From positions 1-64,000 of the forward strand of contig CALUZC010000012.1 in assembly GCA_944325215.1 (NCBI GenBank): DNA of 64,000 nt, given 5' to 3'. Positions within the stretch are counted from its first letter, which is position 1, and every line of letters starts with the position of its first letter. Positions 420 through 64,000 of this stretch are shown one piece after another. This DNA is from an uncultured Mucispirillum sp. GTDB lineage: Bacteria; Chrysiogenota; Deferribacteres; Deferribacterales; Mucispirillaceae. The notes below the pieces were generated by a model. The model searched no databases. It had not been told where the DNA came from and saw only the letters and a program-made list of their open reading frames with translations. The position numbers were made by a program, and so were the translations under genes.

Positions 420-1073
420 TTAGAATCTATATCCAGCTTCAGCATATATTCTAAAACCTGATAAATCAACACCTCCAGGTGCTGTAATAGTATAATCTAA
501 ATTTACTCCTGCATATGCTTTTTTAAAATTATATTTTAAACCTAAAGCAGCAACATAACCAAAATATGCACCATTATAATCAAATACAACATCCTGCCTA
601 CTATAATGCTGTATAGTTTCTGATTTTGCAAAGGATATAACAGGTCCAGTTCCAAACCATGGAACAAAACCTGTTTCATCTTTTTTTCTTTCATATTGTA
701 TTATACCCATTATTTTTATATCAAACATATTTGATATGGTTGTATATTTAAAATAATCTTGCTCTTGTCCTTTCACATATGTATATCCTAAATCAGTGCT
801 TATTGCAAAAAATCTATTAAAATTAAATTTATATTTCAAAGCAGCACCACCACCAACAGCTCCATCTGATAAACCATAAGATACGCTAGTTGGAAAATAT
901 ACACCACCACTTACCCCTAATGTCATAGGGTAATCTTTGTAATTAAGCTTACCAATACTTTTTATTTCACGGTTAAATTCATCAGCAAATGATTCTTTCT
1001 TTTTAGGCTCTTCCTGTGCAGATACGATAAATGATGTAAAAATAAATAAAATACTAAATAATAATTTTTTCAT
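420..1073 (-). CDS. Small outer-membrane beta-barrel protein
   Basis: A 217-residue protein with an N-terminal signal peptide (cleavage likely after FIVSA), a short charged linker and then amphipathic strands typical of an eight-stranded OmpX/OmpW-size barrel. It ends in an aromatic residue (AEAGYRF), the usual outer-membrane assembly signal. The ligand or function is not identifiable. AAGGGG upstream of the ATG serves as ribosome binding site. The gene lies between the two copies of a direct repeat and is transcribed against them. Its promoter contains a nine-base C tract in the -35/-10 spacer, so expression may be phase variable. Confidence 0.8.
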   Translation of the reverse strand: MKKLLFSILFIFTSFIVSAQEEPKKKESFADEFNREIKSIGKLNYKDYPMTLGVSGGVYFPTSVSYGLSDGAVGGGAALKYKFNFNRFFAISTDLGYTYVKGQEQDYFKYTTISNMFDIKIMGIIQYERKKDETGFVPWFGTGPVISFAKSETIQHYSRQDVVFDYNGAYFGYVAALGLKYNFKKAYAGVNLDYTITAPGGVDLSGFRIYAEAGYRF

Positions 1074-1102: not shown

Positions 1103-1129
1103 ATTATATCATGGGGGGGGGAATGTCAA
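1103..1129 (-). promoter_or_regulatory. Promoter with C9 tract in its spacer
   Basis: On the minus strand TTGACA (1124-1129) and TATAAT (1103-1108) are both perfect consensus hexamers. They are separated by 15 bases made of TT, nine C and ATGA. The homopolymer occupies 1113-1121. The spacer is two bases shorter than the optimal 17, so slippage of the tract would alter promoter strength. The start codon is 30 bases downstream of the -10. Confidence 0.85.
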
Positions 1130-1160: not shown

Positions 1161-1423
1161 TTATGATAGTTTTAGGCAAAAATTAGAGTGTATCATACAT
1201 TGCTAAAAAGCTTATTTTATTTAATATAGTAAAAAACGAGGTGATATATGGTAAAAAAGATTTTATTTATAGTAATATTTTTAGCATTAAATATGGAGGT
1301 TTATGCTATGCAGTCAAGTTTAAATAATAAGGAAAAAAGTATTGTGGAGATTTCAGCATACACATCAGCTGGTGATTTACAAAATTTATCAACTGCTTTA
1401 AATAAGGCTCTTGATAATAAAAT
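1161..1423 (+). repeat. Direct repeat, copy B
   Basis: Second copy of the 263-base repeat at 85-347. Here it forms the promoter region and 5' end of the intact CMD/cupin gene. The two copies bracket the barrel gene at 420-1073. Confidence 0.9.
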
Positions 1424-2279
1424 GACTATTAATGAAATCAATGAAATATTAATCCAAAGTTATGCCTACTGTGGCTTTCCTAAAAGCTTAAATGCAATAT
1501 CTACTTTTATTAATGTAGTAAAGGAAAGAAAATCAAAAGGTATAAAAGATATTCAAGGGCAGTCACCAAAAGTATTAACATCAAAAGATAATAAAGGTGA
1601 AATAGGCACTAAAACAAGGGAAGAACTTGCAGGTGGTGAAGTAAAAGGTGAATGGCAGATATTTGCTCCGGGTATTGAGCAGTATTTATTAGAACATTTA
1701 TTTGCTGATATTTTTGCACGTGGAATATTATCTCATCAAGAAAGAGAGCTTGCAACAGTATCATTTTTATCTGTTATAAAAGGGGCAGAGCCACAGCTTA
1801 AAGCTCATATTAATATGGCAAAAAATACAGGGCTTAGTGATAGTAAGTTAGATTATGCTGTCCGTTATGCTCAATTTATAACAGAATATAACATGGGAGC
1901 ATTTGGGCGTGGTGTAGAAAATACAGCTTATGCAAAATATTTTAAAGGCACAAGTTATCTTGATATGTTATCAACAGAAGGCGTTGTTATTGGCAATGTA
2001 GTATTTGAGCCAGGCTGCAGAAACAACTGGCATATCCACCATAAAGGCGGGCAGATATTACTTGTAACTGGTGGCAATGGTTATTATCAAGAATGGGGCA
2101 AACCTGCTAGAAAATTAAAAGAAGGTGATGTGGTACATATTCCAGCAGGTGTAAAACACTGGCATGGTGCAGCGCGTGACAGTTTTTTTGCTCATCTTGC
2201 CATAGAAGTGCCAGCAGAAGGTGCAAAAAATGAATGGCTTGAGCCAGTAAGTGATTCAGAATATAGTAAGTTAAAATAG
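1248..2279 (+). CDS. Exported carboxymuconolactone decarboxylase-like/cupin protein
   Basis: A 343-residue protein. It has a signal peptide ending near VYA (residues 1-20), a CMD/AhpD-like repeat at about 35-85 (YAYCGFPKSLNAI), a second CMD-like segment at about 145-205 (SHQERELATVSFL) and a C-terminal cupin at about 245-330. The cupin carries a His-rich metal motif (WHIHHKGGQ) and a second motif GDVVHIPAGVKHWHG. Such CMD-cupin fusions are usually annotated as oxidoreductase-like or decarboxylase-like with unknown substrate. It heads a tight operon with an FMN reductase (8 bases downstream) and a cyclophilin-like protein, which suggests a small-molecule redox role. GAGGTG precedes the ATG. 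Periplasmic location is inferred from the signal peptide. Confidence 0.85.
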   Translation: MVKKILFIVIFLALNMEVYAMQSSLNNKEKSIVEISAYTSAGDLQNLSTALNKALDNKMTINEINEILIQSYAYCGFPKSLNAISTFINVVKERKSKGIKDIQGQSPKVLTSKDNKGEIGTKTREELAGGEVKGEWQIFAPGIEQYLLEHLFADIFARGILSHQERELATVSFLSVIKGAEPQLKAHINMAKNTGLSDSKLDYAVRYAQFITEYNMGAFGRGVENTAYAKYFKGTSYLDMLSTEGVVIGNVVFEPGCRNNWHIHHKGGQILLVTGGNGYYQEWGKPARKLKEGDVVHIPAGVKHWHGAARDSFFAHLAIEVPAEGAKNEWLEPVSDSEYSKLK

Positions 2280-62745: not shown

Positions 62746-64000
62746 CTACCACAAAAAGTTAACCCACATTTCAACAGTGTGAACATCTGGTTGTAAATCA
62801 GCATTTTTGAATAAATCTGCATATTCAAATACATACTCCAATTGTAATGCACACCATTCAACAGGTTTATAAATTGCACCAATATATGCTAAAGTGGTAT
62901 TTTCATTATTAACACGTTGATTAATAAAATCAAAATTATTAATCATGCCGTTCATTCTAATAGGACTATTTCTATATTGATAGTTTTGAACGTTTACACC
63001 AAGCCATGCTTCAAGCTGCTCTGTAAAAACTTGTGTCATTCTAAAACCACCAACAACCTGGGATATACCATTTTGATATTTTGTTTCAGGAACATTGTAG
63101 TAATCTACAATTAAACTAAGGTAGTTATTTCTATGAATAAGACCTACTAAGTCTATATTACCAAATACTCTGTGGTAATTTCTATCACCATATAATGTTT
63201 TAAAGTTAAATCTTCCTTCGTAACCAACACCAATTAATAGTTTATCAACTATTCCTTGTGTTATCTTTCCCCCCCCCATGATGTATTCACTTGAACCAAG
63301 TAAACCTTCATATAAGGATACGTATGTATTAATAGGGTCATTATTAATTGTAGCCTGCCCATTTACATAAAGAGAAATACCTGTTTTGCTGGCATGAATA
63401 TCAGAATCTATACCTGCTTCATACACTACAGCTTTACCTATTAAATCAGCTTCAGCATATATATTAGCAGCCATTGGGTTAAAACTCAGTGCCTGGTCAA
63501 GTCTTGCCCTTGCAACATGAGTATTTAAATTACCACCATCATCATGCATAAAATAGCTGTATGCAAGTTTAATACGAGTGCCGGAACTTTCCACTGGTAT
63601 TTCAATATTAGTACCAGCTACTTGAGTTTTTAAGTTACTATAATAGCTAACAGGTAAACCATAATAAACGTTCATATTAAAATATTGAGAAGGTGTTACT
63701 TTTATATTAGCACCATCAATTTTATATCCATCAATTTGAGCAAGATAAATTCTACCAAGCGAAATATCTGTTATTGGTATAACATTTTTAAATTCCATAT
63801 TACCCTGGTATATTCTAAAATCGCCATCAAGATTTTCTGCACTGCGAGTAAATTCATTATAAGAACGAGATGCGTAAAGACCATCATAAAATCTATGATA
63901 ATTTCTATCACCAATAGTTGGTGCATTATCATATGCCCCACGAACATTTAAATTTAACACAAATTCACCTTGACCAACCTGAACACCACTTAATCTTAAG
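62746..64000 (-). CDS. Outer-membrane beta-barrel of the cytochrome operon (5' end outside window)
   Basis: The frame runs from the window end, with no start codon needed inside it (SGVQVGQGEF continues into VLNLNVRGAYDNAP). About 417 residues are visible: repeated amphipathic strands, an aromatic C-terminus (MWVNFLW) and no haem motif. It is consistent with a porin that holds or passes electrons for the cytochromes downstream, in the manner of MtrB/PioB-type conduits, but homology is not proven. Nine consecutive G (63269-63277) encode MGGGK mid-barrel, a site prone to slippage; the frame is currently open. Confidence 0.82.
   Translation of the reverse strand, partial: LRLSGVQVGQGEFVLNLNVRGAYDNAPTIGDRNYHRFYDGLYASRSYNEFTRSAENLDGDFRIYQGNMEFKNVIPITDISLGRIYLAQIDGYKIDGANIKVTPSQYFNMNVYYGLPVSYYSNLKTQVAGTNIEIPVESSGTRIKLAYSYFMHDDGGNLNTHVARARLDQALSFNPMAANIYAEADLIGKAVVYEAGIDSDIHASKTGISLYVNGQATINNDPINTYVSLYEGLLGSSEYIMGGGKITQGIVDKLLIGVGYEGRFNFKTLYGDRNYHRVFGNIDLVGLIHRNNYLSLIVDYYNVPETKYQNGISQVVGGFRMTQVFTEQLEAWLGVNVQNYQYRNSPIRMNGMINNFDFINQRVNNENTTLAYIGAIYKPVEWCALQLEYVFEYADLFKNADLQPDVHTVEMWVNFLW
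63269..63277 (-). repeat. G9 homopolymer inside the barrel gene
   Basis: Nine G on the coding strand within ATG GGG GGG GGA AAG. A loss of one G gives TAA within a few codons, a gain gives TGA about 8 codons later. The 1113-1121 promoter tract has the same length and base. Confidence 0.95.

Follow-up and report, generated by a model that had tools for sequence, protein, structure and literature searches.

We identified a promoter with a poly-C spacer in the window (the whole stretch of DNA analysed, 64,000 nucleotides, from a Mucispirillum genome of the Deferribacterota with 30% GC). Judged by sequence comparison, it is very probably a slipped-strand, phase-variable promoter and a member of a dispersed, multi-gene family of surface switches. 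An earlier note on this DNA had proposed a phase-variable promoter ahead of an outer-membrane barrel gene. That reading was largely right and also too narrow, since this promoter belongs to a family whose members mostly drive lipoproteins.

The promoter lies on the minus strand, where the region reads cttgacattCCCCCCCCCatgatataatga. An exact consensus -35 hexamer, TTGACA, occupies positions 1124-1129, and an exact consensus -10 hexamer, TATAAT, occupies positions 1103-1108, on either side of a C9 homopolymer at 1113-1121, confirming the promoter architecture claimed earlier. The 15-base spacer (1109-1123) consists of TT, the nine C and ATGA. The TG at 1110-1111, one base ahead of the -10 hexamer, forms part of an extended -10 element (TGATATAAT), and ATGA or GTGA is kept at this place in most sister promoters. 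A Shine-Dalgarno-like AAGGGG follows at 1080-1085, and 29 bases separate TATAAT from the ATG of the barrel gene (1073-1071). The exact hexamers, the proper spacing of the Shine-Dalgarno sequence and ATG, and the conservation of the layout across the family indicate that the homopolymer separates the -35 and -10 hexamers of a predicted promoter, as in phase-variable promoters of the opc/porA type. The barrel could instead be transcribed from another start, with these hexamers idle, and the AT-rich upstream DNA does contain further weak matches. We consider this highly improbable, given the exact -35 and -10 consensus with an extended -10, the correct distance to the Shine-Dalgarno sequence and ATG, and the fact that most sister genes have the same arrangement 20-50 bases ahead of their start codons.

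The gene downstream (420-1073, minus strand, 217 aa) is predicted from its reading frame, homologue alignment, AlphaFold2 and Foldseek to encode a signal peptide and an eight-strand outer-membrane barrel of the OmpA/OmpX/Ail-type fold, ending in F. It matched no Pfam family. The AlphaFold2 model, based on an alignment of eight homologues from the genus, has eight long strands and a pLDDT of 81, and Foldseek with this model returned OmpA, Ail, OprF, NspA and OmpX (E 1e-7 to 2e-5), in support of the earlier assignment as an outer-membrane barrel. Together with the lipoprotein enrichment described below, the model suggests that the promoter controls a surface-exposed protein, as opc/porA-type promoters do; for the lipoproteins, exposure at the surface is an assumption.

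Direct repeats of 269 bp, matching each other at 97%, flank the barrel gene and its promoter on both sides. The copy at 79-347 carries the divergent gene's upstream region and 5' end, here as a truncated ORF of 62 aa, and the copy at 1155-1423 includes the 5' end of the divergent neighbour itself, which encodes a carboxymuconolactone decarboxylase and cupin protein (1248-2279, plus strand; Pfam CMD 2e-19, Cupin_2 2.5e-9). Recombination between the repeats could delete the barrel cassette. A paralogous barrel has a matching promoter with C6 in the window's genome and with C5 in an M. schaedleri bin, where it is adjoining. Longer flanks bring the spacers of these promoters to 16 or 15 bases, and they look as if they were locked. 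In the M. schaedleri bin (L097) the array includes a second copy of the barrel.

Poly-C and poly-G tracts of this length are abundant in the genome. We counted 31 distinct C/G runs of at least nine bases in 2.55 Mb, compared with 0.86 expected by chance under a first-order Markov model, which bears out the earlier claim that the tract is not a chance occurrence. In 384 kb of the genome, C runs of length five numbered 23 and those of length six numbered one, with none of seven or eight and again one of nine. Among the tracts listed for the genus, 3 runs had length 7, 14 had length 8, 105 had length 9, 24 had length 10 and 4 had length 11. A chance series would drop steadily from seven upward. 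Runs in the genus are far longer than expected by chance and peak at 9-10, the pattern that marks simple-sequence contingency tracts of the Campylobacter type.

A -10-like hexamer follows 52 of the 150 tracts listed in Mucispirillum, or about one third, and among these listed tracts the length profile is equal with and without such a hexamer (chi-square p 0.45). Nine is therefore the length at which tracts settle generally, and we rejected any special link between C9 and promoters. Absence of mismatch repair was likewise rejected as a cause of slippage; MutL is present, so slippage would proceed without help from missing mismatch repair. Separately, G000:C4:65850-65885 (L019) holds a C9 run and a G9 run in facing orientation with 18 bases between them; a long G-C hairpin is possible there, and no clear promoter lies around the runs.

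The layout of hexamers around a C run recurs throughout the genus. A gap-pattern search of the window's genome gave 12 such promoters with tracts of C8-C10. It also gave one site of facing tracts that does not resemble a promoter, and one degenerate relative with C6. Poly-C promoters were present in nine of ten Mucispirillum genomes, each of which gave between 3 and 19 matching rows; the remaining genome is 57% complete. Over the genus the forward pattern gave 85 rows, some of them alternative matches at a single place, versus 9 for the reversed control. One sister genus has five poly-C promoters and the other has none (four genomes searched), and other families of the order gave scattered matches of another form only. 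In a side observation, a tandem pair of lipoprotein genes spaced by about 800 bp (L216; G000:C6:78313 and 79117) has a near-identical C9 promoter ahead of each gene.

The commonest form is TTGACA-TT-C9-ATGA-TATAAT; others include TTGACA-AAT-C9-ATG-TATAAT and TTGATA-TT-C10-TGTGA-TATAAT. Measured from the -35 hexamer, the tract shifts by 1-3 bases, and the opposite flank compensates. The two flanks sum to six bases in 50 of 70 promoters, and the variance of this sum is 0.22 compared with 0.54 after shuffling (reached in 1 of 20000 shuffles, or 4 of 20000 on distinct cores). Total spacing is held by compensating flanks and is therefore under selection, tying the tract to promoter function. The spacer is 15 bases long in 44 of the 65 poly-C promoters with TTGACA, and the naturally occurring series extends over tracts of C7-C11 and spacers of 12-17.

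The lability of the tract was assessed by comparing orthologous promoters across species. One pair from two species has C9 and C7 and is otherwise identical over about 200 bases around the tract (L237/L242). Another has C9 and C8, with two substitutions in 190 columns (L229/L238), and a third has C10 and C9 with few other changes (L214/L223). Tract length thus varies naturally at sister promoters, most of the family having C9. The tract differed in 4 of 15 close cross-species pairs, two of these four, which are pairings of one locus group, differing by substitution and not by an indel. We rejected L217/L226 as a tract change since its difference is a C/A substitution, and set aside the species pair L173/L187 (C8 and C9), which gave no clean alignment beyond the promoter. 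On these alignments, tract lability is seen at some loci, and the window's own locus has C9 in all three species that have an orthologue of the barrel.

This constancy, and the dominance of C9 and of the 15-base spacer across the family, would also fit a fixed element, in which C9 is held as a regulator binding site or as a stiff, A-form-like spacer tuned to a 15-base promoter. The promoters would then form an ordinary regulon with tracts invariant in practice. We regard this as unlikely. The peak at nine is also found at non-promoter tracts, where no promoter site is needed; orthologous promoters differ by one or two C with little or nothing else altered; and the tract shifts relative to the -35 hexamer, unlike a site at which a protein docks. 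The genus-wide family and the natural length differences between orthologues instead favor the poly-C-spacer mechanism put forward earlier, as far as sequence comparison can indicate.

The genes downstream are enriched in lipoproteins. By a strict rule, a lipobox is present in 37 of 68 downstream genes and, in the background set of 345 ORFs, in 13 (odds ratio 30, p about 3e-23), a pooled count in which orthologues enter separately, so that the p value overstates independence. For the window's genome alone, 5 of 9 downstream genes carry a lipobox (p 2e-5). Two of the lipoproteins under poly-C promoters are RCC1-repeat proteins, and targets other than lipoproteins include barrels, small membrane proteins, a GtrII glucosyltransferase and an HlyD-type protein. 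The RCC1-repeat lipoproteins at L208 and L215 are large, with eukaryote-like beta-propeller repeats, and L215 has relatives in several species.

Some carriers are paralogues or tandem copies, such as the L216 pair and the L097 barrel array, and the paralogous barrel promoters have C6 and C5. This would be expected if the promoter module had been copied along with duplicating genes, the tract being a mutable passenger with no switching role. We consider such an origin very unlikely, because the downstream genes sort into many unrelated groups with flanks that differ between groups, total spacing is conserved despite the differing flanks, and Clostridia have promoters of this architecture with yet other flanks.

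In the phase-variable mechanism that we favor, DNA polymerase would slip on the C9 tract and give daughter cells with C8, C10 or C11. The distance between the -35 and -10 hexamers would become 14, 16 or 17 bases, with altered helical phase, and initiation by the main sigma factor and RNA polymerase would change, turning the barrel down or up. The module (TTGACA, 1-3 bases, about nine C, 3-5 bases and a TATAAT-like hexamer) would act in the same way ahead of about a dozen largely unrelated surface genes, chiefly lipoproteins, and each promoter, switching independently, would generate many surface combinations in the population. The slippage rate, the reversibility, the effect on transcription, the sigma factor and the benefit (immune, phage or mucus adaptation) are elements of this mechanism that we infer.

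The earlier note had also held that the observed state, with a 15-base spacer, would be weak. Ordinary spacing was taken from a genus-wide search, the 384-kb sample being too small for this purpose. Among the matches listed, 117 distinct TTGACA/TATAAT pairs without a C tract included 19 with a spacer of 15, 27 with 16 and 21 with 17, against a background level of about 2-10 pairs at each spacer length. In Mucispirillum a spacer of 16 is favored and 15 is ordinary, about as common as 17. Given this peak at 16, we do not uphold the claim that a 15-base spacer would be weak. Extrapolating from these counts, output is likely to be low for C8 (spacer 14), intermediate for C9 (15) and high for both C10 (16) and C11 (17); C10 may be the optimum and C8 an off state.

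Tracts within reading frames provide a further set of candidate switches. A Type III DNA methyltransferase (mod) gene is open over 592 aa at G9 in one genome (L295, G001:C57). The mod gene of the window's genome (L302, C19:20000-23000) has G11, and a frameshift truncates it at 447 aa; the res frame beside it is open. The poly-G tract of this Type III mod gene is thus a candidate phase-variable methylome switch. In the window itself, a second C9 tract at 63269-63277 (plus strand) lies in an open minus-strand ORF of at least 417 aa, which has no Pfam match; this tract is possibly a translational on/off contingency tract, separate from the promoter. Poly-G tracts were also seen inside surface-glycan genes (glycosyltransferase family 8 and GtrII; L297, L301), some with lengths that differ between species.

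The mod gene also bears on whether the tracts could be homopolymer artefacts of assembly or sequencing. Many of the genomes are metagenome bins, in which homopolymer calls can err by one, yet the coding G9 tract keeps its 592-aa frame open, independent assemblies have the tract at orthologous positions, and the promoter family is present in a genome assembled as a single contig (G006). We therefore give an artefact almost no weight.

Mucispirillum inhabits the rodent mucus layer and has been linked to colitis and to colonisation resistance. If the proposed switching is real, about a dozen promoter switches together with the coding-tract switches would let one clone form thousands of surface types, a mixture that would bear on IgA recognition, on phage sensitivity and on the reading of single-strain mouse experiments. 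The natural series of tracts and spacers would also offer a ready test of spacer length against promoter strength outside E. coli. The main Mucispirillum genome paper does not mention phase variation (PMC5285517), and the open-access literature searched gave nothing relevant on either subject, phase variation or homopolymers, for Mucispirillum or for the Clostridia bins described below.

Outside Mucispirillum, the poly-C promoter architecture occurs at at least 72 places with a Shine-Dalgarno sequence and an ORF, mostly with C9 and a spacer of 15-16, in many gut Clostridia bins and a few other phyla. Eight gut Clostridia genomes searched whole had 1-9 promoters each, and reversed controls gave none. 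Several Clostridia bins with genomes of about 1 Mb (e.g. L177, L122 and L118) carry TTGACA-AAT-C9-GAG-TATAAT before varied genes, with spacers of 15 and 16 and a smaller group at 19. Clostridia and Mucispirillum have different flanks around the tract, and this suggests a separate origin for the two sets. We see an even chance that promoters with a poly-C spacer serve gut anaerobes as a recurrent switch, one that arose separately in at least two phyla, as a genus-wide set of independently switching surface-lipoprotein promoters in Mucispirillum and a parallel set in several small-genome gut Clostridia, both settling on C9 and spacers of 15-16.

The mechanism itself is already known from Neisseria opc and porA, while the genus-wide, multi-gene family and its parallel in Clostridia appear to be undescribed in the literature searched. 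As in Neisseria opc, porA and fetA, the homopolymer in the window lies in the -35/-10 spacer of an outer-membrane protein gene. Neisseria promoter tracts are a few bases longer than the main Mucispirillum tract (C9, spacer 15). The Neisseria promoters are single loci, whereas Mucispirillum, in another phylum, has about a dozen dispersed, near-identical promoters per genome, mostly ahead of lipoprotein genes. In the N. meningitidis promoters of opc (poly-C), porA and fetA, changes in the length of the homopolymer between -35 and -10 are thought to alter sigma-factor binding (PMC2791445, citing Sarkari 1994 for opc).

In the vlp system of Mycoplasma hyorhinis, a homopolymer promoter is repeated before several surface lipoprotein genes, each of which switches alone (PMC10502178). 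The reuse of one homopolymer promoter design before surface lipoprotein genes is common to both systems. However, vlp has poly-A promoters and one related gene family, whereas the Mucispirillum set has poly-C promoters before many unrelated groups on dispersed contigs and so does not fall within the vlp type, that is, poly-A promoters of one paralogous lipoprotein family. In Campylobacter, poly-G/C tracts peak at nine (53%) and then ten (26%), with 82% of the poly-G tracts located inside reading frames (PMC6321876). Mucispirillum resembles Campylobacter in this order of run lengths and in its many loci per genome, and differs in that about a third of its listed tracts precede a -10-like hexamer.
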